Positions 1 through 14,064 of a DNA stretch of 64,000 bases are shown piece after piece. Position 1 is the first letter of the stretch, and each line of letters opens with the position of its first letter. Position numbers and translations under genes: made by a program. This DNA comes from Sinimarinibacterium arenosum. GTDB lineage: Bacteria > Pseudomonadota > Gammaproteobacteria > Nevskiales > Nevskiaceae. The notes under the pieces are model-generated. The model saw only the letters and a program-made list of their open reading frames with translations. It was not told the DNA's origin and searched no databases. The DNA lies in NCBI RefSeq assembly GCF_005047655.1, contig NZ_SUKF01000008.1:1-64000 (forward strand), written 5' to 3'.

Positions 1-16
1 GCCATGCCAGCAATGT

Positions 17-52
17 GGACGTCGATATCCTGCGGACCAGGCGCCTTTGCCC
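17..52 (-). promoter_or_regulatory. Partial NasT/ANTAR-type leader running off the left edge
   Basis: Read on the minus strand, two short hairpins occur in tandem. P1 (52 to 39) has a GGGC/GCCU stem and the hexaloop AAAGGC. P2 (30 to 17) has a GGAU/GUCC stem and the hexaloop AUCGAC. Both loops carry A at position 1 and G at position 4, the signature of ANTAR-protein RNA targets. P2 closely resembles the P2 hairpins of the three other leaders in this window. The expected terminator and the gene it controls would lie to the left of base 1. The pairing was done by eye and the terminator cannot be seen, so this copy is less certain than the others. Confidence 0.6.
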
Positions 53-103
53 AATCCCGCAAACTTGTTTCGGATCACCCAAGCAACCCGTCACCTCACC
101 ATC

Positions 104-118
104 GCAAACGCCGTGCCA
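104..118 (-). promoter_or_regulatory. Sigma-54 (-24/-12) promoter, reading out of the window to the left
   Basis: The minus strand reads TGGCAC-N5-TTGC, with GG and GC exactly ten bases apart, as in the RpoN consensus. Transcription would start near base 93, about 40 bases before the first ANTAR hairpin. The same 15 bases recur at 2470-2484 ahead of the porin leader. This is a direct sequence match; use by RpoN is inferred. Confidence 0.75.
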
Positions 119-289
119 AGGTCCGAAGCGCCTGTTGCCCGGATCACCACGGCACCGGGAGAGCGCATCGCGGTACGTAGAGGAATCCTGCTGCACTGCG
201 GCATTTTCAACCGAGGAGTAGCGCCTCATCCGGCTTTGCGGGGCATCGCGTCGGGCGCCGCCGGGGTGCGAATCGTGTTCGTGCGTCTG

Positions 290-306
290 GTGCACAAACA
301 GTGCAC
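290..306. promoter_or_regulatory. GTGCAC-N5-GTGCAC dyad, possible NtrC-type enhancer
   Basis: Two perfect GTGCAC hexamers flank AAACA, giving a TGCAC...GTGCA dyad about 180 bp upstream of the leftward sigma-54 promoter. NtrC enhancers have TGCAC/GTGCA half-sites, but usually with a slightly longer spacer, so the assignment is tentative. The rest of the 119-337 interval holds no gene I can support. Confidence 0.35.
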
Positions 307-337
307 GGAAGCGCCAACTTCGCGCGCAATGGACGCC

Positions 338-934
338 TTAAAGAAGCTCCGTCACCGTCAGCAGGGCACGTGCAGCGTCACCGATCTTGAGCTTGCGCGA
401 CATCGCGATGGTCCGCAGCAGTTCATAGGCGTCGCTTTCGCTGAGCTTGCGCCGTTGCATCAGCATGGCCTTGGCACTTTCAACATCACACCGGTCGGCC
501 AGACGGATCTTGTTGTTCTCGATCTCACGACGCAGCGCCTGATGTTCGTCAAAGCGCGCAATCGCCACCTCGATCACCGACTTCAGCCGCGCAGGCGACA
601 TGCCATCGACCACATAAGCGCTGACGCCGGCACGGATTGCCCGGCGCGTGGTGTCGGGATCGGTCTGCGACGCGAACAACACGATCGGCCGCGGCCGATC
701 GCGGGTGACCTGGCCCAGCGATTCGAGCGTATCGCGACTGGGCGCATCGACATCGACCAGAATCACGTCGGGCCGGTGCCGGTCAACCGCCAGGCTCATG
801 TCATCGCGGCTCGACAGTCGTGCGACCACTCGATGTCCTGAGGCATCCATCGCCTGCTGCATCAGATCCAGCCGCTCGGCGTCGTCGTCGACCAGCATCA
901 CGCGCAGCGCTGCCGGGGTCTTGCGCGAACTCAT
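338..934 (-). CDS. ANTAR-domain response regulator, NasT-like paralogue without adjacent NasS
   Basis: The 198-residue protein has an N-terminal receiver-like domain (acidic cluster D16-D18, candidate phosphoacceptor D63 in DVDAPS) and a C-terminal ANTAR RNA-binding domain at about 145-198 (AKAMLMQRRKLSESDAYELL). It is closely similar to the NasT at 2586-3155 over its whole length. The usual ANTAR AKGxLM core is AKAMLM here. The ATG at 934 starts MSSRKTP; a start 21 bases upstream would add MDAGVLH. It lies 166 bp downstream of the porin gene on the same strand and may be co-transcribed with it. It probably binds the same class of two-hairpin leaders, but how it is controlled without its own NasS is unknown. 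Confidence 0.85.
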   Translation of the reverse strand: MSSRKTPAALRVMLVDDDAERLDLMQQAMDASGHRVVARLSSRDDMSLAVDRHRPDVILVDVDAPSRDTLESLGQVTRDRPRPIVLFASQTDPDTTRRAIRAGVSAYVVDGMSPARLKSVIEVAIARFDEHQALRREIENNKIRLADRCDVESAKAMLMQRRKLSESDAYELLRTIAMSRKLKIGDAARALLTVTELL

Positions 935-1100
935 GTGCAAGACCCCGGCATCCACACGACAGCGGCATCGCCGCAGGCTGCGGCGACTTCACTATATAAG
1001 GACATCAACACCCCGTTGCCAGGCGGCATTGTGTGTCGCGGTGAGTTGTATGCGGCGCGGATGGTCATCACGCGCGGGCCTCATGACGATGGCGACAAGG

Positions 1101-2282
1101 TCACAGATGGTATTCGATCTGCAGCCACAGTTTGTCCGTGTCCACGCCATAGTCATTCGCCCGATAGCGGGCCAGTTTGATCTGCCCCTGCACGTCATAC
1201 GGTAAAGACACCGAGATCCGGGCATCGAGTTCGCGACCGAGATCGTCGTGCGACTCGTCAGAGCGGAACTGATGATAAGCCGCCCCGATGCCGCACCAGG
1301 GCAACTTGGCATCGACCGCGACATAGGCATCGCGCAGACCCGCATCCGGTGTCTTCAGGAACACGTCGGCCCAACCCTGGAATGCATGGCGGGTACCCAG
1401 CGGGGTCTGCAGTGCAAAGTCGCCGGCATCGCTCCCCAGTAGCTCATATCCCAGCTTCAGGGCCAGTGGATTACGCTCCAGCGCCAGCTCGGCCAGTCCA
1501 TAGCGGGTGTCGAAACGATCGCTACCGCGAACCGCCCTTTGCTCTGCCATCTCGGCGCTATAACGCAGCTGCGTTGCAGGAGCCAGACCGACCTTGCCGG
1601 TGGCACGCAGCCCGAACGTGTCGAGGTCCGCTGCAGCCGGATCCTCATTGTCGATCCAGTAACCGTAGGCGCTCAGTCCGATCTTCGGATCGATGGCCCA
1701 ATGCACCCGCAACAGCTCGGCGCGGACCTCCACGTTACTGAGCGTGATGGTGTTGACCGTGCTTAGATACGCCGCGTCGATCGTCACGGTCTTGAACATC
1801 CCCGCGTGCAGAAAGACCCCATCAAAGGTCTGTTCGTTCTGGCGCCAACCGACGTTTCCGATCCAGCGGGCGTTGTCGTAAATGAGCCGTTGCCGCCCCG
1901 CGCTCAGCAGGATCTCCGGCGTCACCGCGTACTGCACCCCATAACGGTTCAATTCGCTGCCCTCGGGATCGGCCACAACCGGTCGCCCGGCTGTTTCGGG
2001 AGCGTAATCGTCGACCAGTGCGGCCGTGTGCTCGAATTCAACAAACGCAGTAACGTCCGCTACGGCGCGTGTGCTGTATCCAAGCCGTGTGCGCAGGGTC
2101 AGTGCATTGGCTTCCTTGTCCAGGTTGTCCTGCTCGACCGATTCATAGCGCAACCGCAGGTCCAGTTGTGTGGTGCCGCCATGCAGGAAATCCTGTACCT
2201 GCGTCTCTTCTCCCCATGCAGCCGCCGCGCATGTGAGCAGACCTGCCCCGCCCAGCATTGCAACCCTTTTTGTTACGCCCAT
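1101..2282 (-). CDS. Alginate-export-family outer-membrane porin, nitrate-locus type
   Basis: This 393-residue protein begins with a signal peptide (MGVTKRVAMLGGAGLLTCAA, cleavage near AAWGEE). The remainder is typical of beta-barrel porins of the alginate-export type: alternating aromatic strands, a DLRLRYESVEQDN opening, many R/Y-rich strands and a final strand ending in EYHL. Family members often accompany nitrate or nitrite uptake genes, and the expected role here is outer-membrane passage of nitrate. The start at 2282 is chosen because it gives a clean signal peptide; a start at 2324 would add 14 non-signal residues and lie inside the leader. A sigma-54 promoter and a two-hairpin attenuator precede it, so it is probably made only under nitrogen limitation with nitrate or nitrite present. 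Substrate is inferred. Confidence 0.85.
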   Translation of the reverse strand: MGVTKRVAMLGGAGLLTCAAAAWGEETQVQDFLHGGTTQLDLRLRYESVEQDNLDKEANALTLRTRLGYSTRAVADVTAFVEFEHTAALVDDYAPETAGRPVVADPEGSELNRYGVQYAVTPEILLSAGRQRLIYDNARWIGNVGWRQNEQTFDGVFLHAGMFKTVTIDAAYLSTVNTITLSNVEVRAELLRVHWAIDPKIGLSAYGYWIDNEDPAAADLDTFGLRATGKVGLAPATQLRYSAEMAEQRAVRGSDRFDTRYGLAELALERNPLALKLGYELLGSDAGDFALQTPLGTRHAFQGWADVFLKTPDAGLRDAYVAVDAKLPWCGIGAAYHQFRSDESHDDLGRELDARISVSLPYDVQGQIKLARYRANDYGVDTDKLWLQIEYHL

Positions 2283-2332
2283 TGAAAGTACCGCCCCCTT
2301 CCGTTCGGTTGTCGAAAAAAACACGCGCGCAC

Positions 2333-2429
2333 AAAAAAAGCGCCCCCCAAGATCAGCGTGGCTGATTCAGGTGGACGCCCTTGTCCTGTACGCAGTGGTG
2401 TACGGCTGTCGCAGGCCCATCATTGGGCC
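2333..2429 (-). promoter_or_regulatory. NasT/ANTAR two-hairpin leader with terminator, upstream of porin
   Basis: On the minus strand P1 (2429 to 2414) has a GGCCC/GGGCC stem and hexaloop AAUGAU. P2 (2386 to 2373) has a GGAC/GUCC stem and hexaloop AAGGGC. Both have A1 and G4. The 3' arm of P2 is also the 5' arm of an intrinsic terminator (2378 down to 2340, inner stem AUCAGC/GCUGAU) followed by seven U (2339 to 2333). P2 and the terminator cannot form together. This is the geometry known for ANTAR antitermination (NasR, NasT, EutV), so NasT stabilising P2 would allow porin transcription. Confidence 0.85.
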
Positions 2430-2469
2430 GCACCGTCATGGTGCTAAAGCTGAAGCCAATGCCCCAAAC

Positions 2470-2484
2470 GCAAACGCCGTGCCA
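2470..2484 (-). promoter_or_regulatory. Sigma-54 promoter for the porin operon
   Basis: TGGCAC-N5-TTGC on the minus strand, with perfect GG-N10-GC spacing. The predicted start near 2459 lies about 30 bases ahead of the first ANTAR hairpin. It is identical over 15 bases to the site at 104-118. It is divergent from, and 46 bp away from, the sigma-54 site at 2531-2545. Confidence 0.8.
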
Positions 2485-2530
2485 TCCCTCCATGCGCTAA
2501 CACCGACGCCGTGCACGTCGCAGCACACAA

Positions 2531-2545
2531 GGGCACAGATCTTGC
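2531..2545 (+). promoter_or_regulatory. Sigma-54 promoter for nasT-nasS
   Basis: GGGCAC-N5-TTGC with GG-N10-GC spacing; only the first base departs from TGGCAC. Predicted start is near 2557, some 30 bases before the nasT ATG, which leaves no room for an attenuator. The regulators therefore seem to be controlled by promoter only. The intervening 2485-2530 stretch contains TGCAC and GCAC half-sites that could form a shared enhancer. Confidence 0.65.
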
Positions 2546-2585
2546 GGAGTGAGCTCTACTTACCGACCCGGATGCGCAGCCCCCC

Positions 2586-3155
2586 ATGCGTGTGATGCTC
2601 GTGGACGATGACTATGGACGTATGGCTCTGCTTCGCCAAGCGCTGCTGGCAGGCGGAAACGACGTTGTCGCGCAAATGTCGACCACCGACGATTTGCTCG
2701 CCTGCGTCGCGCGCCTGCAGCCGGACATCATCCTGATTGAAGTCGATGCACCCAGCCGCGATACGCTCGAATCGCTGGGTCAGATCAATCGCGACCGACC
2801 GCGACCGATCGTCCTGTTCGCCAACCACAGTGACGCCGATACCGCGCGCCGTGCCATGCGCGCCGGCGTCAGTGCCTACGTCGTCGACGGCATGTCGCCG
2901 TCTCGGCTGAAGTCGGTGATCGACGTCGCCATTGCACGCTTTGATGAGCACCAGGCCTTGCGTCGGGAGTTGCACGAAACCAAGACACGTCTGGCCGATC
3001 GCCGCGACGTTGACCGCGCCAAGGGCATCCTGATGCAACGGCGCAAGCTCAGCGAAACCGAGGCCTACGAACTACTGCGAAAGATGGCGATGGACCGCAA
3101 CGTCAAAATCGGCGACGCGGCACGCTCGTTGCTCGCGGCCGCCGAGCTGCTATGA
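2586..3155 (+). CDS. nasT: Nitrate/nitrite-responsive antiterminator NasT (ANTAR)
   Basis: The 189 residues comprise a receiver-like domain (acidic cluster DDD at 7-9, D54 in VDAPSRD) and an ANTAR domain at about 136-189 (AKGILMQRRKLSETEAYELL). In characterised systems NasT binds a two-hairpin leader RNA and prevents termination, and NasS holds it inactive until nitrate or nitrite binds NasS. The stop overlaps the start of nasS (ATGA), consistent with translational coupling and complex formation. The order nasT-nasS is the reverse of the commoner nasS-nasT. Likely targets are the leaders at 17-52, 2333-2429, 4438-4505 and 5269-5379. Confidence 0.92.
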   Translation: MRVMLVDDDYGRMALLRQALLAGGNDVVAQMSTTDDLLACVARLQPDIILIEVDAPSRDTLESLGQINRDRPRPIVLFANHSDADTARRAMRAGVSAYVVDGMSPSRLKSVIDVAIARFDEHQALRRELHETKTRLADRRDVDRAKGILMQRRKLSETEAYELLRKMAMDRNVKIGDAARSLLAAAELL

Positions 3156-4360
3156 GCGAGGAACGCATGAGCGAAACGCTCGAGAAAAAGAAACTCCGCC
3201 TCGGCGTTGTGCCCCTGGCGGATGCCGCACCGATCATTGTCGCTCGCGACAAGGGCTTCTTCGAAATGCATGGCCTGCAGGTCAGCATCAGTGTCGAAGC
3301 ATCCTGGGCGAGCATTCGCGACAAACTGGTCGCCGGCATTCTCGATGGCGCACAGATGCTCGCGCCGATGCCCATCGCCGCAACGCTCGGACTCGATGGA
3401 CTCGGCACGCCGATGGTCACCGCGCTGAGCCTGAATCTCAACGGCAACTCGATTGCCGTATCCGAGCGCCTGTATCGCGAGCTGCATTTGCAGCGGCGCG
3501 ATGCAGCGGCAGCGGGCCGTGCGCTGAAAGACTTGCTGATCCGTGACCGCCTGACCGGTCGCGGGCCGCGCGTGTTTGCACACGTGTTTCCGTTTTCCAC
3601 CCATCACTACGAACTGCGCTACTGGCTCGCCGCCAGTGGCATCGATCCGGACCACGATGTACGGCTTGAGGTGGTTCCGCCGCAGTTGATGGTGCACAAC
3701 CTGCGCGATGGCCGCATCGACGGCTTCTGCGCCGGCGCGCCCTGGGGTGCCGTGGCGGAGATTGCCGGCAGCGGTTATCGCATCGTCAACACCTACCAGA
3801 TCTGGAACAACGCGCCGGAGAAAGTGCTGGGCGTCACCCGTGACTGGGCCGACGCAAACCCCACCACGCATCGCGCGCTGGTCGCAGCATTGATCGACGC
3901 CTGCCGCTGGCTCGATGCGGCCGAACATCGTGCCGAAGGCGCGCAGCTGCTGATCGACAGCGAAGTGCTGGAAGCCCCACCGGCAGCGATTCGCGCGGCA
4001 CTCGATATTCCGGTCGCGGGCGATCCGTTTTTCGGGCCTGGCCTGGCATTCCACGCCGGTGCCGCGAACTTTCCGTGGGTCTCGCACGCCCAGTGGTTCA
4101 TCGAGCAGATGCAGCGCTGGGGCCAGGTCCCGGCGGATGTCGACGCCGCGGCGGTCGCGGCCAAGGTCTATTTGCCCGCGCTGTATCGTCAGGCCGCGGC
4201 CAGTCTGAAGATCACTTCACCGCTGGAGGATTCCAAGACGGAAGGTCAGCACGACGGCGACTGGTCACTGGAGCAGCCGTCCGGCGCAATCCGGATGGGT
4301 GCCGACCGTTTCTTTGACGGAAGCATCTTTGACCCGGGCGTATCCGGACTCCCGCGTTGA
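3152..4360 (+). CDS. nasS: Nitrate/nitrite sensor NasS (NrtA-like, cytoplasmic)
   Basis: The 402 residues match the NrtA/NasF nitrate-binding family (LRLGVVPLADAAPIIVA near the start, [41 protein letters not shown]). There is no signal peptide or lipobox, in contrast to NrtA at 5406. That combination, with overlap to nasT, identifies the cytoplasmic sensor NasS rather than a transport protein. It is expected to sequester NasT and release it on binding nitrate or nitrite. A second in-frame ATG six residues in (MSETLEKKK) is also possible. Confidence 0.92.
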   Translation: MSEERMSETLEKKKLRLGVVPLADAAPIIVARDKGFFEMHGLQVSISVEASWASIRDKLVAGILDGAQMLAPMPIAATLGLDGLGTPMVTALSLNLNGNSIAVSERLYRELHLQRRDAAAAGRALKDLLIRDRLTGRGPRVFAHVFPFSTHHYELRYWLAASGIDPDHDVRLEVVPPQLMVHNLRDGRIDGFCAGAPWGAVAEIAGSGYRIVNTYQIWNNAPEKVLGVTRDWADANPTTHRALVAALIDACRWLDAAEHRAEGAQLLIDSEVLEAPPAAIRAALDIPVAGDPFFGPGLAFHAGAANFPWVSHAQWFIEQMQRWGQVPADVDAAAVAAKVYLPALYRQAAASLKITSPLEDSKTEGQHDGDWSLEQPSGAIRMGADRFFDGSIFDPGVSGLPR

Positions 4361-4402
4361 ACGCGTACCGGTACGCAGTTTCACCCCGGTCATCCAGCGT
4401 TG

Positions 4403-4417
4403 TGGCATGACGCGTGC
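4403..4417 (+). promoter_or_regulatory. Sigma-54 promoter for the globin transcript
   Basis: TGGCAT-N5-GTGC, with GG and GC ten bases apart; the -12 element has GTGC instead of TTGC. Predicted start is near 4428, about ten bases before the first ANTAR hairpin. The position relative to the leader matches the other copies and raises confidence despite the weaker -12. Confidence 0.65.
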
Positions 4418-4437
4418 TTGTGATATTCCCGACGCCA

Positions 4438-4505
4438 AGCCCAACGATGGGCTGCCGGCACCGGATAACGAAGTCCATCACCCTCTCGGGCGATGGGCTT
4501 TTTTT
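4438..4505 (+). promoter_or_regulatory. NasT/ANTAR two-hairpin leader with terminator, upstream of globin
   Basis: P1 (4438-4453) is AGCCC/GGGCU around hexaloop AACGAU. P2 (4463-4476) is GGAU/GUCC around hexaloop AACGAA. Both loops have A1 and G4. The terminator pairs AGUCCAUC (4472-4479) with GAUGGGCU (4492-4499), with an inner CCC/GGG stem and tetraloop, followed by a run of T to 4505. The terminator 5' arm overlaps the 3' arm of P2, so the two are exclusive. GATGGGCT also occurs in P1 (4446-4453) and could pair with AGUCCAUC, giving a second way to disrupt the terminator. The 190 bases between 4505 and the globin ATG hold no gene I can support. Confidence 0.85.
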
Positions 4506-4698
4506 GTTGGAGCAAGGTCCTTCCCCCAGAGGCGACGCTCCTGTTCCGTTGCCGCAGTCCATCTGGCCGCGTCTGCAGCGTCGCCGCGCGGGCGCGGCGC
4601 GGTCGAGGATGCCCCTGTTCCGGCCTCTTTCAGAGTCATTCCGACCGCACCGCGTCCGCGCCCTTGTTGACGCAAGCGAACGACAGAACGGAAACCAC

Positions 4699-5097
4699 AT
4701 GACTCCGACACAAGTGGCGCTGGTGAAATCGACCTGGGCACAGGTTCTGCCCATCCAGGATCAGGCGGCAACGTTGTTCTACAACAAGCTGTTCGAGCTG
4801 GATCCCAGAGTGCAGTCGATGTTCCGTGGCGACCTGCCAACCCAAGGCAAGAAGCTGATGCGGATGCTCGATATCGCTGTCCGCGGACTGGATCATTTTC
4901 ATGCCCTGCTACCCGCACTGAAGGATCTCGGCCGACGCCATACCCAGTACGGTGTGCGCTCGGACGATTACGGCACGGTGGCTCTGGCGCTGCTGTGGAC
5001 GCTGGAACAAGGGCTCGGCGACGCCTTTACCGCAGAGGTGCGCTCCGCGTGGACCGAGGTCTACACCGAACTGGCCACGGCCATGCAGACGCTCTAA
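4699..5097 (+). CDS. Single-domain bacterial globin
   Basis: The 132 residues show the full globin fold pattern of the Vitreoscilla haemoglobin/flavohaemoglobin-head class (MTPTQVALVKSTWAQV start, F42 at the CD corner, proximal His H81 in LGRRHTQYGV, final AWTEVYTELATAM). No reductase domain follows. The start at 4699 is chosen because the family normally begins at MTPTQ; earlier in-frame Met codons lie inside the leader. It sits between nasS and nrtA behind its own sigma-54 promoter and NasT-type attenuator. A role in handling nitric oxide or nitrite stress made during nitrate assimilation is inferred from this context; oxygen binding is an alternative. Confidence 0.88.
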   Translation: MTPTQVALVKSTWAQVLPIQDQAATLFYNKLFELDPRVQSMFRGDLPTQGKKLMRMLDIAVRGLDHFHALLPALKDLGRRHTQYGVRSDDYGTVALALLWTLEQGLGDAFTAEVRSAWTEVYTELATAMQTL

Positions 5098-5147
5098 CCG
5101 GCACTGCAGGCGGGCCCCGCGGCGGTGCGCCCGCTCGCGCCAGCTTG

Positions 5148-5160
5148 GTGCGCAGCGCAC
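5148..5160. promoter_or_regulatory. GTGCG-CAG-CGCAC dyad, possible enhancer upstream of nrtA
   Basis: An inverted repeat lies about 65 bp upstream of the nrtA sigma-54 element. Its TGGTGC...GCACGG outline resembles the dyad at 290-306. It could bind an enhancer protein such as NtrC, but spacing and half-sites do not match the classical consensus well. Confidence 0.25.
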
Positions 5161-5224
5161 GGCATTGAGCCGCCGCCGCGGCGTGTCGCCGGCATGAAAG
5201 CGCGGCCACCTCGTTCGGCAAAGC

Positions 5225-5239
5225 TGGCACGCGGCTTGC
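5225..5239 (+). promoter_or_regulatory. Sigma-54 promoter for the nrt-nir-nas operon
   Basis: TGGCAC-N5-TTGC with perfect GG-N10-GC spacing. Predicted start near 5251, about 18 bases before the first ANTAR hairpin. No other promoter was noticed before mobA, so it may drive all genes to nasA. Confidence 0.8.
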
Positions 5240-5268
5240 GATAAACAACCCAGCACTGGATGAAGCGC

Positions 5269-5379
5269 GCACCAACGGCGGTGCATGCGGCGCAGGTTAT
5301 GTCCTGCGGAAGGGTGCTCAGAATCGGACAACGGCGTCCATGGCACGGTCGAGAGACCGTCTCATGGGCGCTTTTTTTT
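5269..5379 (+). promoter_or_regulatory. NasT/ANTAR two-hairpin leader with strong terminator, upstream of nrtA
   Basis: P1 (5269-5284) is GCACC/GGUGC and P2 (5326-5339) is GGAC/GUCC; both carry the identical hexaloop AACGGC with A1 and G4. The terminator has a nine-pair outer stem (5334-5342 with 5363-5371) and a six-pair inner stem (5345-5350 with 5355-5360) closed by a GAGA tetraloop, then eight T (5372-5379). Its 5' arm overlaps the 3' arm of P2, so antitermination by NasT binding is the obvious reading. This is the clearest of the four copies. The ATG at 5340 lies inside the terminator and is not the nrtA start. Confidence 0.9.
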
Positions 5380-5405
5380 GCCTTTTGGAAACTGAGAGAC
5401 GAACC

Positions 5406-6857
5406 ATGACCAGCAGCTCGCATCGTCATCCATCATCAGGATTGCGCCGCCTCGCGCTGCCCGCAATGACCCTGCTTGCCACCTTGGCTGCCGCGGCCTG
5501 CGGCAGCGGTGACAAGACCAGCGCAGCACCCGAGGCCTCGCCGAAGGCGGCAGCGCCTGCAGTTACCGTTGCGCAACCGGAAAAGGCCGAGCTGAAGTTC
5601 GGCTTCATCAAGCTGACCGACATGGCACCGCTCGCGGTGGCCTATGAGAAGCACTACTTCGAAGACGAAGGGCTGTTCGTCACGCTCGAAGCGCAGGCCA
5701 ACTGGAAGGTGCTGCTCGACCGCGTGATCTCGGGTGAGCTCGACGGCGCACACATGCTCGCCGGCCAGCCGCTGGCGGCCACCATCGGCTTCGGCACGGC
5801 GGCCGACATCATCACGCCCTTCTCAATGGATCTGAACGGCAACGGCATCACCGTTTCCAACACGATCTGGGAGGAGATGAAAAAGAACATTCCGATGGAG
5901 GACGGCAAGCCGGTCCATCCGATCAGCGCCAGCGCGCTGGCGCCGGTGGTCAAGCAGTACAAGGCCGCAGGCAAGCCGTTCAACATGGGCATGGTGTTTC
6001 CGGTATCGACGCACAACTACGAGCTGCGCTACTGGCTCGCCGCCGGGGGCCTGAATCCGGGCTACTACGCACCGCTCAAGGGTGACGTCGGCGGACAGAT
6101 CGGTGCAGACGTGCTGTTGAGCGTGACGCCGCCGCCGCAGATGCCGGCGACGCTGGAGGCCGGGACCATCTTCGGCTACTGCGTGGGTGAACCGTGGAAT
6201 CAGCAGGCCGTGTTCAAGGGCATCGGCGTGCCGGTGATCACCGACTACGAGATCTGGAAGGACAATCCGGAGAAAGTCTTCGGTATCCGCGCCGACTTCG
6301 CCGAGAAGTACCCGATCACCACCAAGGCGGTCACCAAGGCGCTGATCCGTGCGGCGTACTGGCTCGACGAGAACAACAATGCTAACCGCATGGAAGCGGT
6401 GCAGATGCTGGCCAAGTCCGACTACGTCGGTGCAGACGCCGAAGTCATCGCCAACTCCATGACCGGAACCTTTGAATACGAGAAGGGCGACAAGCGTCCG
6501 GTGCCGGACTTCAACGTGTTCTTCCGCCACAACGCCACCTATCCGTACTACTCGGACGCGATCTGGTACCTGACGCAGATGCGTCGCTGGGGCCAGATTC
6601 CTGAGCAGCATCCGGACAGCTGGTACATGGACACGGCGAAGAAGGTGTATCGCCCGGACCTGTACGCCGCGGCAGCGAAGGAGCTGATCGCCGAAGGCAA
6701 GCTGAAGTCCAGCGACTTCCCGGACTTCGCTACCGAAACCGGATTCCGCCCGGCGACTAACGAGTTCATCGACGGCGTGACCTATGACGGTACGCAGCCG
6801 AACGCCTACATCGACGCCTTGAAGATTGGTTTGAAGGGCGACGAGACCGTCAAGTAA
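5406..6857 (+). CDS. nrtA: Nitrate ABC transporter substrate-binding lipoprotein NrtA
   Basis: This 483-residue NrtA/CmpA-type binding protein starts [12 protein letters not shown], then a hydrophobic signal and a lipobox-like LAAAAC with the lipidated Cys near residue 33, followed by a Ser/Ala/Pro linker. The family region follows: [68 protein letters not shown]. It captures nitrate (and possibly nitrite) in the periplasm for NrtB and the ATPase. It is clearly paralogous to NasS but exported. The ATG at 5406 is chosen because upstream ATGs fall in the attenuator. It is the first gene of the nrt-nir-nas run. Confidence 0.93.
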
Positions 6858-6912
6858 ACCGCGACGCACATAGACGCCGCATCGATCAGACAAGACGTAT
6901 TGGGGATTGCTC

Positions 6913-7932
6913 ATGATGCTGAATCACACTGTCAATTTTCTCGGCAAGGCCGGGTTGACCTGGTTCATTCCGATGGCGCGGCTGGTCGCGGGTGAGGACC
7001 CGCGGCAGCAGCTGCGCGAAATCCTGCAGGTGATCGGCATTCCGGTGCTGGCTTTTGCCATCTTCCTCGGTCTGTGGGGCGGACTGGCCGGCTCGGTGCA
7101 GACCAGTCTCGGCGCCTTGCCGGGTCCGTCGGCGGTGCTTGAAGCCGCGGGCGGGCTGCTCGACGAACACCGGGCCGAACGTGAGAAGGCGGATGCGTTC
7201 TACAAGCGGCAGGACGAGCGCAATGCGCAGATCCTCGCCGCCGACCCGAATGCAGAAGTCAACGTCCGCGCGTGGACCGGCAAGCCGACCTACATCGATC
7301 AGATCGGTACCAGTTTGCTGACGGTGTTCTGCGGTTTCGTCATCGGCACCCTGGTTGCGGTGCCGCTGGGCATCGTCTGCGGTCTGTCCAATATCGTGCA
7401 GGCTGCGATCAATCCGATCATCCAGATCTTCAAGCCGGTCTCGCCACTGGCATGGCTGCCGATCGTGACCCTGGTGGTCAGCGCGGTCTACGTCTCGGCC
7501 GATCCGATGTTCGAGAAGTCGTTTCTGATCTCCGCGATCACGGTGACGCTGTGCTCGCTGTGGCCGACGCTGATCAACACCGCAGTCGGTGTGGCCTCGG
7601 TCGACAAGGATTTGATCAACGTCTCCAAGGTGCTGCAGCTGTCGTGGTTCGCCAAGGTCCGCAAGATCGTGCTGCCGTCGTCGCTGAAGCTGATCTTCAC
7701 CGGTCTGCGGCTGAGCCTGGGTGTGGGCTGGATGGTGTTGATCGCCGCCGAGATGCTGGCGCAGAACCCCGGGCTGGGCAAATTCGTCTGGGATGAATTC
7801 CAGAACGGCAGCTCGCAGTCGCTGGCCCGCATCATGGTTGCGGTCTTCACGATCGGCTTCATCGGCTTTCTGCTCGATCGCGTGATGGCCACCCTGCAGC
7901 AGCTCGCCAGCTTCGGCGACGACCTGCGGTGA
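6913..7932 (+). CDS. nrtB: Nitrate ABC transporter permease NrtB
   Basis: The 339-residue inner-membrane protein has a first membrane helix at about 40-60 ([17 protein letters not shown]), a long periplasmic/charged segment, then a cluster of helices from about residue 130 and an EAA-loop region ([18 protein letters not shown]) that docks the ATPase. This is the NrtB/SsuC permease type with a longer N-terminal domain. The ATG at 6913 is preferred over a TTG two codons earlier; 6916 is also possible. It lies 55 bp after nrtA and 13 bp before the ATPase gene. Confidence 0.92.
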
Positions 7933-7945
7933 GCGGAGCCCAGCC

Positions 7946-9694
7946 ATGCAAGCCCAATTGAAAATGCGTCCGCTCACCGAGCCCGCATCGGCGTCCGGTC
8001 CCATGCCGTCGCCATCCGCACCACCGGCACCGATCCGGCTGGAACTGCGCAACGTTGCCAAAGCCTATGGTGCCGGCACGCGTCGCAGCGAAGTGCTCAA
8101 GAACATCAATCTGCAGATCAAGGAAGGCGAGTTCGTTGCCATCGTCGGATTCTCCGGCAGCGGCAAGTCCACCTTGATCTCGCTGATTGCCGGACTGATC
8201 GCACCCGATCAGGGTGAAGTCCTTGCCGGCGGCAAGGCGGTCACCGGCCCCGGGCCGGACCGCGGGGTGGTGTTCCAGAACTACTCGCTGATGCCGTGGA
8301 TGACCGTGCGCGAGAACGTCGCGCTCGCAGTGGATCAGGTGTTCGGCGCCGAATCGCGGGCGCAGCGCGCAGCGCGGGTCGAGAAATATGTCGGCATGGT
8401 CGGATTGACGCCGGCCATGGCCAAGCGACCGGCCGAGCTGTCCGGCGGCATGCGTCAACGCGTCGCGGTTGCGCGTGCGCTGGCGATGAGCCCGGACATT
8501 CTGCTGCTGGACGAACCGCTGTCCGCATTGGATGCACTGACACGCGCCAAGTTGCAGGACGAAATCATTCAGATCTGGGACCAGGAAAAGAAAACCTGCG
8601 TTCTGATCACCAATGATGTCGACGAAGGCCTGATCATGGCCGATCGCATCATCCCGCTGAATCCGGGCCCCGGCGCAACCTTCGGCCCCGAGTTCATCGT
8701 CGATCTGCCGCGCCCGCGCGATCGTCGTGCGATGAATCATGACCCGGCGTTCATCCGCCTGCGCAAGGACGTGACGCAGTATCTGATCGACGCCGCGGCG
8801 TCGCAGAATGCACAACGTGACGACAAGGTCGTGCCGCTCAAGGGACTGATCCCCAAGACCAGCGACGACTACCCGGCAACGATCAAGGCCGGCAAGAAGA
8901 AAGCCCCGGTACAGCCGGAACGCTATGTCGAGTTTTCGCAGATCTCCAAGATCTATCCGACCCGCAAGGGACCGGTCAAAGTCGTCGACGGCTTCGATCT
9001 GAAGATCCGTCAGGGCGAATTCATTTCGCTGATCGGACACTCCGGCTGCGGCAAGTCGACCGTGCTGTCGATGATGGCTGGGCTCAACTCCGTCAGTGAG
9101 GGCGTGATCATTCTGGACGGCAAGGAGATCGACGGCGCCGGTCCGGATCGCGGCGTCGTATTCCAGGCCCCGAGTCTGGTGCCGTGGCTGTCGGCCTTCG
9201 AGAACGTCGCTCTCGGCGTCAACCAGGTGTTTCCGCAGGCCAGCGAGGCCGAACGTACCGAGATCATCGAGCACTATCTGGCTCGCGTCGGCCTCAGCGA
9301 ACAGAAGCACAAGAATGCTGCCGAGCTTTCCAACGGCATGAAGCAGCGCGTGGGTATCGCACGTGCATTCGCACTGTCACCCAAGCTGATGCTGCTGGAC
9401 GAACCGTTCGGCATGCTCGACTCGCTGACGCGCTGGGATCTGCAGGAAGTTCTGATGGACGTGTGGGCACGCACACAGCTGACCGCCATCATGGTGACCC
9501 ACGACGTTGACGAGGCGATTCTGCTGGCCGACCGCGTGGTGATGATGACCAACGGCCCGAACGCCAGGGTCGGCAAGATTCTCGAAGTCGATCTGCCGCG
9601 TCCACGCACACGCAAGGCACTCCTGGAGCATCCGGATTACTACCGCTTGCGCGAGGAGCTGCTGAGCTTCCTCTCCGACTGCGATCACGCCTGA
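7946..9694 (+). CDS. Nitrate ABC transporter, tandem double-ATPase subunit
   Basis: The 582 residues contain two complete ABC ATPase domains. Domain 1 has Walker [10 protein letters not shown] (about 68-76), signature LSGGMRQR (about 165) and Walker B LLLDEP; domain 2 has GHSGCGKST (about 365-373), LSNGMKQR (about 461) and LMLDEP. In the cyanobacterial system NrtC (ATPase plus an NrtA-like domain) and NrtD (ATPase) are separate; here two ATPase domains are fused and no NrtA-like domain is present. The linker at about 295-325 is Lys-rich. The second signature has Asn instead of the usual third-position Gly (LSNGM), a feature seen in this family. It energises nitrate import through NrtB. Confidence 0.92.
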
Positions 9695-9702
9695 GGCACG
9701 CC

Positions 9703-12258
9703 ATGAAAATCATCGTCATCGGCAACGGCATGGTGGGGCACAAGTTCGTCGAAGAACTGGTCGCGCAGCAGAATGTGGCAGCGGACGTCACTGTGCTGTG
9801 CGAAGAGCCGCGCCCAGCCTACGACCGTGTGCAGCTGTCTGCCTTTTTCTCCGGCAAGACCGCCGACGATCTGTCGCTGGTCACGCCGGGCTTCTTCGAA
9901 CAGCATAGTGTGGATCTGAAGCTGGGCGTCGGCGCCAAGTCGATCGACCGCACGCTGAAGACGGTGACCACCACCGCCGGCGAAACGCTGGGCTACGACA
10001 AGCTGGTCATCGCCACCGGCTCGTATCCTTTCGTGCCGCCGATTCCGGGCAAGGACCGCGAAGGCTGCTTCGTCTACCGCACGATCGAAGATCTGGAAGC
10101 GATGACCGCCTGCGGCGCGCGGTCCAAGGTCGGTGTAGTCATTGGCGGTGGCTTGCTCGGCCTGGAATGCGCCAAGGCGCTGCGCGATATGCAGCTGCAA
10201 ACGCATGTCGTCGAGTTCGCTCCGCGCCTGATGGCAGTGCAGATCGATGACGGCGGCGGGCGCGTGCTGCGCAGCAAGATCGAACAGCTGGGCGTCACCG
10301 TCCACACGCAGAAGAACACGGTTGAAATCGTTGCCGGTGATCACTGCCGGCACAAGATGAAGTTCGCGGACGGCGCCGAGCTGGAAACCGACATGATCGT
10401 GTTTTCCGCCGGCATCCGGCCGCGCGACGAACTGGCGCGCGCCTGTGGCCTGGGCGTTGGCGAGCGCGGCGGAATCATCGTCGACAATCACTGCCGCACG
10501 CTCGACGACGACATCTATGCCATCGGCGAATGCGCTTTGTGGAGCGGCCGCATTTTCGGCCTGGTGGCACCGGGCTACGAAATGGCGCGGGTTGCGGCGA
10601 AGACGATTGCCTCATCACCGTCACATGACGCGCCGCAGTTCACCGGCGCCGATATGAGCACCAAGCTCAAGCTGATGGGCGTCGACGTCGCCAGCATCGG
10701 TGATGCGCACGCGGCAACCGCCGGTGCACGCAGCTATGTGTTTACCGACGAGCGCAAGCAGATCTACAAGAAGCTGGTGACCTCCGAGGACGGTTCCCTG
10801 CTGCTCGGTGCGGTGCTGGTGGGTGATGCCACCGAGTACGGCCAGCTGTTGCAGATGATGCTGAACCACATCGCGCTGCCGTCGTCGCCGGAATTCTTGA
10901 TCCTGCCCGCCGCGGACGGTCAGACCCGCGTGGGTCTGGGAGTCGATGCGCTGCCCGGGTCGGCGCAGATCTGTTCGTGCAACAACGTGACCAAGCTGCA
11001 GTTGTGCGAAGCGGTCGGCGCCGGCTGCACCACGCTCGGCGCGCTGAAGAAGACCACGCAGGCAGCGACCTCCTGCGGCGGCTGTGCGCCCCTGGTGACG
11101 CAGATTCTCAAAGCCGAGATGAAGCGCCTGGGTCACAGCGTGAACAATCATGTCTGTGAGCATTTCGCCTATTCGCGGCAGGAGCTGTATCACCTGGTGC
11201 GCGTCGGACGTATCGAAACCTTCGACGCACTGCTGAGCAAGCATGGCAGCGGACTGGGCTGCGATATCTGCAAGCCAGTGGCTGCCAGCATCTTCGCTTC
11301 GTGCTGGAACGACTATGTGCTGACCCGCGACAAGGCCGCACTGCAGGATTCCAACGACTACTTCCTGGCCAATATCCAGAAGAACGGCACCTATTCGATC
11401 GTCCCACGCATCGCCGGCGGCGAGATCACGCCGGACAAGCTGATCGTGCTCGGTCAGGTCGCCAAGAAATACGGTCTGTATACCAAGATCACCGGCGGCC
11501 AGCGCATCGATCTGTTCGGTGCCCAGGCGCACCAGCTGCCGCAGATCTGGAGCGAGCTGGTCGACGCCGGATTCGAGACGGGCCACGCCTACGGCAAGGC
11601 GGTCCGTACGGTGAAGTCCTGCGTCGGCAGCACCTGGTGTCGCTTCGGCGTGCAGGACTCGGTGTCGATGTCGTTGACGATCGAGCATCGCTACAAGGGC
11701 CTGCGCGCTCCGCACAAGCTCAAGTTCGCGGTCTCCGGTTGCACCCGCGAATGCGCCGAGGCGCAGAGCAAGGATGTTGGCGTCATCGCCACCGAGAAGG
11801 GCTGGAACCTCTACGTCTGCGGCAACGGCGGCATGAAACCGCGTCATGCCGAACTGCTGGCGGGCGACCTGGACGATGCCACCCTGCTGCAGTACATCGA
11901 CCGGTTCCTGATGTTCTACATCCGCACGGCCGATCGCCTGCAGCGCACCAGCGTCTGGCGCGACAACCTCGAAGGCGGTCTCGACTATCTCAAGGACGTG
12001 ATCGTGCATGACTCGCTGGGCCTCGGTGCCGAGCTTGAGGCCGAGATGGCGCAAGTGGTCGACAGCTACGTCTGCGAGTGGAAACGCACAGTCGAGGATC
12101 CGGAAGCGGTCAAGCGCTTCCGCACCTTCATCAACGCCGACGGCGGCGACGACAACGTCGTGTTCGTCGAGGAGCGCGGACAGATTCGACCGGCAACCGC
12201 AGCGGAACGTGAGCGCCCTGAGTTCAAGGGTGTCGCCGTTGTCGCCGAGCCAGCCTGA
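9703..12258 (+). CDS. nirB: Assimilatory nitrite reductase [NAD(P)H] large subunit NirB
   Basis: The 851 residues match NirB in length and order: FAD-binding Rossmann motif (VIGNGMVGHKFVEEL, from residue 3), NAD-binding motif VVIGGGLLGLECAKAL (about 145-160), a BFD-like [2Fe-2S] domain (CSCNN...SCGGC, about 424-470), then the sulfite/nitrite reductase ferredoxin-like half and the sirohaem/[4Fe-4S] cysteines (C-V-G-S-T-W-C near 640 and C-T-R-E-C near 680). It reduces nitrite to ammonium in six electron steps. It begins 9 bp after the ATPase gene, and nirD follows 33 bp downstream. Confidence 0.96.
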   Translation: MKIIVIGNGMVGHKFVEELVAQQNVAADVTVLCEEPRPAYDRVQLSAFFSGKTADDLSLVTPGFFEQHSVDLKLGVGAKSIDRTLKTVTTTAGETLGYDKLVIATGSYPFVPPIPGKDREGCFVYRTIEDLEAMTACGARSKVGVVIGGGLLGLECAKALRDMQLQTHVVEFAPRLMAVQIDDGGGRVLRSKIEQLGVTVHTQKNTVEIVAGDHCRHKMKFADGAELETDMIVFSAGIRPRDELARACGLGVGERGGIIVDNHCRTLDDDIYAIGECALWSGRIFGLVAPGYEMARVAAKTIASSPSHDAPQFTGADMSTKLKLMGVDVASIGDAHAATAGARSYVFTDERKQIYKKLVTSEDGSLLLGAVLVGDATEYGQLLQMMLNHIALPSSPEFLILPAADGQTRVGLGVDALPGSAQICSCNNVTKLQLCEAVGAGCTTLGALKKTTQAATSCGGCAPLVTQILKAEMKRLGHSVNNHVCEHFAYSRQELYHLVRVGRIETFDALLSKHGSGLGCDICKPVAASIFASCWNDYVLTRDKAALQDSNDYFLANIQKNGTYSIVPRIAGGEITPDKLIVLGQVAKKYGLYTKITGGQRIDLFGAQAHQLPQIWSELVDAGFETGHAYGKAVRTVKSCVGSTWCRFGVQDSVSMSLTIEHRYKGLRAPHKLKFAVSGCTRECAEAQSKDVGVIATEKGWNLYVCGNGGMKPRHAELLAGDLDDATLLQYIDRFLMFYIRTADRLQRTSVWRDNLEGGLDYLKDVIVHDSLGLGAELEAEMAQVVDSYVCEWKRTVEDPEAVKRFRTFINADGGDDNVVFVEERGQIRPATAAERERPEFKGVAVVAEPA

Positions 12259-12291
12259 GCCTGCGCAATGCCTGCTATGGATGGAATACGT

Positions 12292-12630
12292 ATGAGCACG
12301 CTTTGGCACGACGTCTGTGGTGTGGACGAGATCTGGCCCAATACCGGGGTCTGTGCCCGCATCGACAACCGTCAGATTGCAATCTTCCGGATCGATCGCG
12401 CCGACGGCGCGACCGAAATCTTTGCGATCGACAACCACGACCCGCATTCCGGCGCGAACGTGCTGTCGCGCGGGATCGTCGGCAATCTCGGCGCACGCAC
12501 CGTGGTGGCTTCGCCCATCTACAAGCAGCATTTTGATCTGGCAACCGGCGATTGCCTCGAGGAGCCGTCGCTGCCGGTGCGCAGCTACGCCGCCGAGATC
12601 AACGACGGGCGGGTTCGGGTCTGCGTGTGA
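12292..12630 (+). CDS. nirD: Nitrite reductase small subunit NirD
   Basis: The 112-residue protein has a Rieske-like fold in which the iron-sulfur ligands are replaced (NHDPHS and SPIYKQHF instead of Cys-x-His pairs), which is normal for enterobacterial-type NirD. The GDCLEE and SLPVRSY segments are characteristic. It is the partner of NirB. The ATG at 12292 is preferred over one 24 bases upstream (MPAMDGIR) because family members begin close to the first beta strand. Its stop overlaps the next gene (GTGA). Confidence 0.93.
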   Translation: MSTLWHDVCGVDEIWPNTGVCARIDNRQIAIFRIDRADGATEIFAIDNHDPHSGANVLSRGIVGNLGARTVVASPIYKQHFDLATGDCLEEPSLPVRSYAAEINDGRVRVCV

Positions 12631-14051
12631 ACGCAACGGCGCTGAACGCTTTGATCGTGCCCGCGCGCCTGCGCGGTGGCCTGCGCGTGACCAGCGGCCC
12701 GGGCCACGCGGAGCGCTCCGGCGCCGGCCGGTCTGCAAGTCCGGCGGCATCCGCCGCAGGCCAGGGCGCGCCGCGCACACAGAGCGGGGATGATGCTCAG
12801 GGTCAGGGGAACCGTCCTCGCCAGCATCTGGTCGTGATCGGCAACGGCATGGCCGGCATGCGCACGGTTGAAGAGCTGCTGAAGCTCGACGACCAGGCCT
12901 ACGACATCACGGTGTTCGGCGCCGAGCCGCACGGCAACTACAACCGCATCATGTTGTCGCCGGTACTCGCCGGCGAAAAGACGGTCGACGACATCATGCT
13001 CAACACGCCGCAGTGGTATGCCGATCACGGCATCACCCTGTACGCCGGTGATCCGGTGGTGGCGATCGATCGCCGCGCCCGCCGCGTCCGTGCGGCCAGC
13101 GGACGCGAAGTCGGTTACGACCGGCTGTTGCTGGCAACGGGCTCCAAGCCTTTCGTGATTCCGGTTCCGGGTGCCGATCTACCGGGCGTGATTGCGTTCC
13201 GCGATATCGGCGACGTCGACGCGATGCTCGCGGCCGCACGGAATCATCGAAACGCTGTGGTCATCGGCGGCGGATTGCTCGGCCTTGAAGCCGCCAATGG
13301 CCTGATGCGTCAGGGCATGAACGTCACGGTGGTCCACGTGATGGACAGCCTGATGGAGCGACAGCTCGACAAGCCGGCGGCGATCCTGTTGCAGCAGGCA
13401 CTGGAGGCGCGCGGCATCGGCTTCATGCTGAACGCCAATACCGAGGCGATTCTCGGCAGCGATCGCGTCACCGGCCTGCGCTTCAAGGATGGCCGCGAGA
13501 TGGCCGCGGATCTGGTGGTGATGGCCGTCGGCATTCGCCCCAACGTCGATCTCGCGCGCAGTGCCGGCCTGCACTGCGAACGCGCCATCGTGGTCGACGA
13601 CACGCTGCAGTCGCTGTCCGATCCGCGCATCTATGCCGTTGGTGAATGCGTGCAGCACCGCAAGACCGTCTACGGGCTGGTCGCACCACTCTGGGAGCAG
13701 GCGCGCGTGTGCGCGTCGCATCTGGCCGGCGTCGGACACAACCGTTATTCCGGATCGGTGACCTCGACGCAACTCAAGGTCACCGGCATCCATCTGTTTT
13801 CCGCAGGCGATTTCATTGGCGGCGCCGATACCGAAGAACTGGTGTTCCGCGACCCGCGGCGCGGTGCCTACAAGCGCCTGGTCCTGCGAGACCAGCGAAT
13901 CGTCGGTGTCGTTCTGTATGGCGATGTCCAGGACGGTCCGTGGTATTTCGAATTGATGCAGAACCAGACCAACATCGAATCGCTGCGGGACCGGCTGCTG
14001 TTTGGCCGTGCGTTCTGCACACCACCAGCCGGCCCGACCGGCGGACCTTGA
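12627..14051 (+). CDS. FAD-dependent oxidoreductase, electron-transfer subunit for nitrate reductase (NasB/NasC type)
   Basis: The 474 residues resemble the N-terminal half of NirB: FAD motif VVIGNGMAGMRTVEEL beginning at about 69, NAD motif VVIGGGLLGLEAANGL at about 212, ATGSKPF and VGECVQHRKTVYGLVAPLWEQ signatures. The protein ends without [2Fe-2S] or sirohaem domains. Its place between nirD and nasA suggests it passes electrons from NAD(P)H to NasA. The start is probably the GTG at 12627, overlapping the nirD stop; no in-frame ATG occurs before the Rossmann motif. The first ~65 residues are a Gly/Ala/Ser/Arg-rich extension that NirB-like proteins lack. Confidence 0.85.
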   Translation: MNATALNALIVPARLRGGLRVTSGPGHAERSGAGRSASPAASAAGQGAPRTQSGDDAQGQGNRPRQHLVVIGNGMAGMRTVEELLKLDDQAYDITVFGAEPHGNYNRIMLSPVLAGEKTVDDIMLNTPQWYADHGITLYAGDPVVAIDRRARRVRAASGREVGYDRLLLATGSKPFVIPVPGADLPGVIAFRDIGDVDAMLAAARNHRNAVVIGGGLLGLEAANGLMRQGMNVTVVHVMDSLMERQLDKPAAILLQQALEARGIGFMLNANTEAILGSDRVTGLRFKDGREMAADLVVMAVGIRPNVDLARSAGLHCERAIVVDDTLQSLSDPRIYAVGECVQHRKTVYGLVAPLWEQARVCASHLAGVGHNRYSGSVTSTQLKVTGIHLFSAGDFIGGADTEELVFRDPRRGAYKRLVLRDQRIVGVVLYGDVQDGPWYFELMQNQTNIESLRDRLLFGRAFCTPPAGPTGGP

Positions 14052-14064
14052 GGGGGGTCGAATC

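Follow-up and report, generated by a model that had tools for sequence, protein, structure and literature searches.

The window, by which we mean the whole stretch of DNA analysed here (64 kb, the first part of contig C23, NZ_SUKF01000008.1, of Sinimarinibacterium arenosum), carries at its left end four leaders, A to D, each with two hairpins (P1 and P2) whose hexaloops have the form A-N-N-G-N-N. With a probability that we put at about 0.88, these leaders are transcription attenuators that lie behind sigma-54 promoters and are opened by an ANTAR protein. The hairpins, the terminators that overlap them, the promoters, the genes and the conservation of the arrangement across the family can be read in the sequence. 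An earlier note on this DNA had pointed to the same four sites; these were right, whereas the spans had to be redrawn, the hairpin pairs lying at about 11-56, 2367-2432, 4435-4482 and 5266-5345.

Probable attenuator leaders of the window

Both strands of the 64 kb were searched with a finder whose requirements are a pair of A-N-N-G-N-N hexaloop hairpins and, overlapping them, a terminator with five T or more. It returned three complete leaders, namely B, C and D, with P1/P2 loop starts at 2424/2382 (-), 4443/4467 (+) and 5274/5330 (+). For leader C it also printed a second possible P1. In 40 dinucleotide shuffles of the same 64 kb it gave 0.05 leaders on average and one at most. Among 55 sources (the window and 54 loci of relatives, 1.0 Mb) there were 45 candidates, some of them alternative pairings of a single leader, whereas 25 of the sources (0.44 Mb), shuffled once each, gave none. 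In B, C and D the P2 hairpin overlaps the 5' arm of the U-tailed terminator, as the earlier note had stated for the three visible copies; the terminator of A was found on another contig, C10.

The covariance model R1 was built from 27 training rows, hand-chosen from the 67-row list of the finder. Leader C is the only one of these rows that comes from this genome, so its own score is circular; A, B and D are outside the training set. R1 matched all four leaders, A at 35.1 bits (E 4.6e-7) within the window. Leader D scored 25.5 bits over 5266-5345 and 19.9 bits with another P1 alignment, and the best match in the window below the four leaders reached 11.2 bits. Over the whole genome the E-value of leader B is only 0.26, so that the case for this leader is made by the finder together with the terminator and the promoter. 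No Rfam family reached its gathering score in the window, and for this reason Rfam neither confirms nor refutes the leaders. In positions 1-6500 a single Rfam match had an E-value up to 10: leader D matched the Pseudomonas sRNA P11 at E 7.4, with 15 bits where the cut-off is 70. It was not used as evidence.

All four leaders have A at the first and G at the fourth loop position in both hairpins. The whole leaders, terminator included, are unusually stable (z -3.76 to -4.67) and fold into the terminator form. Each is preceded by a sigma-54 element, as previously claimed: GG at -24 and GC at -12 in the context TGGCAYR-N5-TGC are exact at A, B, C and D. The pattern TGGCAYRNNNNNTGC has five exact matches in the 64 kb (1.59 expected), and four of the five precede the leaders. 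Genome-wide it has 55 matches and the reversed pattern 46, so that a sigma-54 promoter alone proves little.

Conservation in the genome and in the family

The earlier count of four leaders is right for this locus; the genome as a whole has six different leaders, A being present twice, and every one of them has a sigma-54 promoter. The two others were found with R1 on contig C19: leader E precedes the gene of an OmpA-cupredoxin protein, and leader F precedes the genes of the X600 and TPR proteins. Leader E, whose P2 loop is GAAGAC and thus begins with G, escaped the strict finder. Eight weaker R1 matches in the genome (18.1 bits or less) were left uncounted, and a scan of two such regions showed no leader.

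The family set comprised 58 genomes, this one included, and R1 at an E-value of 0.05 gave 132 matches, one of which was unreadable and was dropped. A perfect sigma-54 site lies within 140 nucleotides upstream of 100 of the 131 that were read; for random positions in these loci the share is 0.87%. In order of falling R1 score the proportions are 42/45, 15/22, 20/28 and 23/36. Moreover, the leaders go together with the presumed regulator. An ANTAR gene is present in 48 of the genomes and absent in 10, and strict leaders (site and terminator), counted with R1 alone, occur in 40/48 of the former and 1/10 of the latter (p 1.9e-5, a value that overstates the association because related species are not independent samples). 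The exception, G012, which has a leader without an ANTAR gene, is 84% complete. When the finder leaders near ANTAR genes are added the counts become 44/48 against 1/10, the genomes without ANTAR genes having been searched by R1 only.

Compensatory changes were also seen in the related genomes. In the model rows 99.1% of the cells are paired and 37 are changed on both sides; slid control alignments gave 22 to 47% paired and 4 to 12 cells changed on both sides. The rows had been preselected for the four inner pairs. The fifth P1 pair was free, and both of its bases have changed in 10 of 26 distinct rows. Beyond the model, 65 of 89 distinct leaders form P1 pair 6, 60 form pair 7 and 60 form pair 8, with varied pair types. 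P2 is nearly invariant and adds little of this kind. Among the 89 family leaders the first A and the fourth G are found in 69 and 82 of the P1 loops and in 78 and 87 of the P2 loops.

Among the 31 matches that lack a perfect promoter, some, for example those on G022:C151, G022:C347 and G012:C79, show neither promoter nor terminator and are probably not leaders. Seven R1 matches without promoter or terminator (L241, L247, L251, L258, L259, L276 and L278) have in common a motif like GGACA-N-GGA-TGTCCA together with an upstream hairpin, and may represent a dispersed repeat rather than leaders.

Several observations weigh against the attenuator reading. A perfect sigma-54 promoter is missing at 31 of the 131 family matches. 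In five other families of the order (25 genomes) R1 was silent at an E-value of 0.005, though 14 of the 25 genomes have ANTAR genes. The P1-P2 parts, when folded by themselves, show no unusual stability (z -2.05 for A, -0.60 for B, -1.12 for C and +0.23 for D), those of B, C and D folding no better than shuffles. The distance between the loop starts is 22 nucleotides in A and 24 in C, but 42 in B and 56 in D, and a linker lengthened by 20 nucleotides is described, in the available text on EutV, as abolishing antitermination. The hexaloop is closed by a C-G pair in P1 of all four leaders and in P2 of B and D, but by a U-G pair in P2 of A and C, unlike the C-G preference given for NasR in the part of the literature at hand. 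Finally, a simple NtrC-like palindrome (GCAC-N5-9-GTGC, scanned over 300 nucleotides upstream) was found at none of B, C, D, E, F and the second copy of A; among the sites considered it occurs only at leader A and at nasT, where it coincides with a hairpin of leader B. This simple scan did not account for the promoters. A compensating hairpin inside the long P1-P2 spacers was also considered and is in general unsupported (mean z -0.36 over 20 spacers).

Genes of the window and their proposed nitrogen control

The features are collected in Table 1. The start of the porin is likelier, by inspection, at about 2282 than at 2324. The nasT gene adjoins a gene of the NMT1_2 (NasS) type, as in the NasS-NasT system; we take this neighbour to be nasS-like from its position after nasT and from homology. 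In the run behind leader D the permease, the ATPase, NirB and NasA are assigned with Pfam and the remaining genes by inspection.

Table 1. Positions of leaders, terminators, promoter elements and genes in the window
Feature	Position	Strand	Basis
Leader A, P1 loop AAAGGC, P2 loop ATCGAC	11..56	-	model R1, 35.1 bits
Sigma-54 element of leader A, TGGCACGGCGTTTGCG	103..118	-	exact match 104-118 to TGGCAYRNNNNNTGC
NasT2, second ANTAR response regulator	338..955	-	Pfam PF00072, PF03861
Alginate_exp family outer-membrane porin, behind leader B	1101..2324	-	Pfam PF13372
Leader B terminator, arms 2382 to 2336, U tract, overlaps P2	2333..2382	-	finder; fold; sequence
Leader B, P1 loop AATGAT, P2 loop AAGGGC	2367..2432	-	finder; R1, 19.5 bits
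Sigma-54 element of leader B, TGGCACGGCGTTTGCG	2469..2484	-	exact pattern match 2470-2484
GG-N10-GC element before nasT, GGGCACAGATCTTGCG	2531..2546	+	one mismatch to strict pattern
nasT, receiver and ANTAR antiterminator	2586..3155	+	Pfam PF00072, PF03861
Presumed nasS-like nitrate sensor, NMT1_2 family	3152..4360	+	Pfam PF13379
Sigma-54 element of leader C, TGGCATGACGCGTGCT	4403..4418	+	exact pattern match 4403-4417
Leader C, P1 loop AACGAT, P2 loop AACGAA	4435..4482	+	finder; R1, 42.8 bits (training row)
Leader C terminator, arms 4470 to 4501, U tract, overlaps P2	4470..4505	+	finder; fold; sequence
Single-domain globin, behind leader C	4699..5097	+	Pfam PF00042
Sigma-54 element of leader D, TGGCACGCGGCTTGCG	5225..5240	+	exact pattern match 5225-5239
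Leader D, P1 loop AACGGC, P2 loop AACGGC	5266..5345	+	finder; model R1
Leader D terminator, arms 5335 to 5370, U tract, overlaps P2	5335..5379	+	finder; fold; sequence
Nitrate ABC transporter binding protein (nrtA-like), first behind leader D	5406..6857	+	Pfam PF13379; name from context
Permease, double ATPase, nirB, nirD-like, reductase, nasA-like	6907..16767	+	open reading frames and Pfam

Two sigma-54 (Sigma54_DBD) genes, at G000:C2:117389-117862 and G000:C12:68461-68922, and one ntrC were found in the genome above the cut-off. If the leaders work as we propose, RNA polymerase with sigma-54 would start about 12 nucleotides past the GC element and make the P1 and P2 hairpins. If no ANTAR protein is active, the terminator stem would take up the 3' portion of P2 and transcription would stop at the U tract. 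When nitrate or nitrite is sensed, the ANTAR protein would be freed from NasS and would hold the hexaloops, so that P2 would persist and the terminator could not form. The read-through would then extend to the porin (B), the globin (C), the transporter-nirB-nasA run (D) and the DUF3034 envelope operon (A). Two keys would be needed, nitrogen limitation (sigma-54 with its activator, probably NtrC) and nitrate. For these leaders, ANTAR binding, termination, the nitrate signal and the role of NtrC are what we infer from this arrangement.

The nasT promoter had been described as having no attenuator. This is so here, where the element departs from the strict pattern by one mismatch and the finder gave no attenuator at the site, but not in G038 and G046 (L145, L146), where a dual-hexaloop leader and a GG-N10-GC element precede the ANTAR gene itself. 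The ANTAR genes of G040, G041, G044, G029, G030 and G031 and, less clearly, that of G037 have similar sequence upstream. A leader before the ANTAR gene in G038 and G046 would, if true, amount to positive autoregulation. Sites comparable to that of nasT precede the ANTAR genes of many relatives, and sigma-54 promoters before NasT-group ANTAR genes have been predicted in 66 cases, according to the available text of PMC12316311.

The two ANTAR regulators

The genome was found to have exactly two ANTAR genes, both inside the window: nasT and a second gene (338-955, -), here NasT2, which goes unmentioned in the earlier note. That all four leaders are gated by NasT, as had been stated, is thus not established: NasT2 is directly upstream of leader A, so that control by NasT cannot be assumed for every leader, and the class of which leader A is a member heads envelope operons. 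NasT2 is 69% identical to NasT, has no NasS-type neighbour gene in the 64-kb window and, unlike nasT, showed no sigma-54 site upstream in the promoter scan. By alignment, the place that we take for the usual phosphoacceptor of the receiver appears to be Glu in NasT (2586-3155) and Asp in NasT2.

We propose that B, C and D answer to NasT, and leader A to NasT2, either by itself or together with NasT. A division into two regulons, in which NasT-NasS would serve B, C and D and NasT2 would serve A and perhaps other envelope leaders, with P2 loop position 2 contributing to the discrimination, seems to us a little less than an even chance. Apart from the place of NasT2 beside leader A, it is favoured by that loop position, which is A in 12/12 nitrate-type leaders against 3/36 DUF3034 leaders (3/30 when identical ones are counted once), counts that depend on ancestry. 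A second ANTAR gene, in some cases with its own NasS-like gene, also lies inside the envelope cluster of relatives (L122, L131, L132, L135 and L152-L155). In addition to its lack of a sigma-54 site, NasT2 groups in the tree with its counterparts of G043 and G039 (support 99/85), on longer branches, beside a group with the NasT of the same genomes. However, not all envelope leaders differ from the nitrate type, the same position being A in 20/29 OmpA-labelled and 9/11 X600 leaders. Moreover DUF3034 leaders are present in G033 and in G003, genomes with a single ANTAR gene, so that one protein can serve both kinds; specialisation of the regulators is for this reason only a proposal.

It is less likely, and on the whole doubtful, that NasT alone opens all the leaders and that NasT2 is either a copy in decay or blocks NasT as a competitor. 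The longer branches and the lower ANTAR score (47 bits against 70.5 for NasT) would fit such a fate, and so would the residues that, in an alignment placed by offset, seem to correspond to K143 and K147 of EutV and are C and S in NasT2. The open frame has nevertheless been kept in three species, and the residues apparently aligned with E160, Y164, R168 and M172 of EutV are retained. A reading of the hairpins and promoters as products of chance, or as generic terminators of GC-rich intergenic sequence, which could draw on the small genome-wide excess of the sigma-54 pattern over its reverse, is very improbable, being contradicted by the finder's results against shuffles, by the sigma-54 sites at the family matches and by the co-occurrence with ANTAR genes.

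The operon behind leader A

The window starts at the end of contig C23, which cuts leader A, and its terminator therefore lies outside the window, on C10 (L177), where the 3' arm ends at about 140. The first 123 bases of C10 are those of the left end of C23 and are also common to the right end of C19, and the other end of this 5.4-kb contig has 123 bp in common with C9 and C2. C10 looks like a collapsed two-copy repeat, and it presumably continues from C23, as indicated by the 123-bp overlap and the similar gene order in G043. Its order is leader A, terminator with U tract, DUF3034, globin-like, OmpA-DUF3034, second globin-like, FMN-binding and PepSY-like. The globin-like protein has a Pfam score of 19.2 bits, below the 21-bit cut-off, and the PepSY-like protein 17.7 bits, also below cut-off.

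The repeat (G000:C10:1-5441) starts 5 bases before the promoter of leader A, and contains an internal duplication of a 1463-bp segment (321-1783 and 2521-3983, 98.8% identity). In G043 a segment of leader, DUF3034 and globin-like gene is present in two copies (L113:4351-6111 and L236:7604-9363) with 99.94% identity over 1761 bp, whereas between G043 and the present genome the DUF3034 part is about 74-75% identical. The two copies may have arisen by a recent duplication or have been kept alike by gene conversion.

Leader A is a member of a class that heads the DUF3034/globin-like/FMN-binding/PepSY operon across the family. DUF3034 is found in 39 genomes, 39/39 of which have an ANTAR gene, and in 0/10 of the genomes without one. 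A leader was detected upstream of 36 of the 42 DUF3034 genes. Of the remaining six, those of G001 and G031 show by eye a U-tailed hairpin together with a perfect sigma-54 site, that of G034 shows by eye a leader-like P2 and terminator at the contig start, those of G026 and G039 are cut off by the ends of their contigs, and the last is the second copy within the C10 operon.

The targets were surveyed at 106 R1 matches with a perfect site or a terminator, labelled by tblastn within 1.8 kb. The first recognised gene was DUF3034 in 36, OmpA-cupredoxin in 29, X600 in 11, NrtA/NasS type in 5, globin in 3, FMN-binding in 3, NirB in 2, NasA in 1, porin in 1 and none in 15, where the OmpA label may rest on the OmpA domain alone, repeated copies are counted separately and R1 may favour envelope leaders because it was trained partly on them. 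These switches therefore seem to serve more than the nitrate cluster. The pair of X600 (592 residues) and a 957-residue TPR protein (L178:7095-11743) is present in many relatives, often near the OmpA-cupredoxin and DUF3034 genes. X600, a protein of about 600 residues, matched no Pfam or NCBIfam family above cut-off and had one weak Pfam match below it. From the globin-like, FMN-binding and cupredoxin parts one might guess at a redox or nitric-oxide role for the envelope module.

Relation to known systems

ANTAR antitermination is indeed an established mechanism, described for EutV, NasR and NasT in the text available to us. The view that a double gate of sigma-54 and NasT would be unusual in kind is not supported, since the same kind of gate is described for Pseudomonas nirBD (NalA) and multi-leader regulons have been published. 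According to the available parts of PMC12830290 and PMC3973561, nirBD is started by sigma-54/NtrC and antiterminated by NasT, and the likeness consists in a sigma-54 promoter and a NasT-released terminator before nitrate-assimilation genes. There, as far as the text seen goes, one leader is described; here two ANTAR genes accompany six different leaders, which include those before the porin, the globin and the envelope operons. The nasF/NasR system of Klebsiella oxytoca likewise joins Ntr control to nitrate-dependent ANTAR antitermination at A1/G4 hexaloops (PMC5424462, PMC7496416, in part). NasR itself senses nitrate, whereas here NasT has a NasS-like partner.

To our knowledge sigma-54 is not involved at the eut leaders of Enterococcus faecalis. 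This cluster resembles the present one in its four separate dual-hexaloop leaders under one ANTAR protein, EutV (available text of PMC3369931 and PMC8934654), and PMC3369931 describes multi-leader regulons, one species having 13 elements or more. The eut system differs in serving ethanolamine genes and, in the portions seen, in its phosphorylated regulator. The bjgb gene of Bradyrhizobium diazoefficiens encodes a haemoglobin. In that species NasT-type hairpins are predicted at several operons, including the bjgb and narK leaders, but narK-bjgb-flp goes up, not down, in the nasT mutant, and RpoN or sigma-54 is unmentioned in the main text as available (PMC6759348).

Both the double gate (Pseudomonas NalA, Klebsiella nasF) and multi-leader ANTAR regulons are thus already known. 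What goes beyond them is the second ANTAR gene beside leader A and the leader-A class that heads the DUF3034 operon across the family. Judged by titles and the starts of abstracts, a literature search on DUF3034 gave nothing that looks related; a search on Nevskiaceae and nitrate assimilation found no paper, and one joining ANTAR/NasT, sigma-54 and OmpA gave, by titles, no report of such a link among the papers listed.

Meaning for the family

We suggest tentatively, leaning slightly towards doubt, that the NasS-NasT system of the Nevskiaceae type, with its sigma-54 promoters, mainly drives an envelope module (DUF3034, secreted globin-like, FMN-binding, PepSY, OmpA-cupredoxin, X600 and TPR proteins), and that ANTAR duplicates such as NasT2 and distinct hexaloop letters split this module from nitrate assimilation. 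If this is true, one two-key lock would switch both the use of nitrate and a surface apparatus for redox or nitric-oxide handling. Whether or not this is so, the leaders offer a testable case of an RNA-level key added to the sigma-54 key on many operons, and allow the specificity of a pair of ANTAR paralogues and of the hexaloop letters to be compared. They also provide a regulatory handle on a conserved and little-studied set of genes, DUF3034 and its partners.

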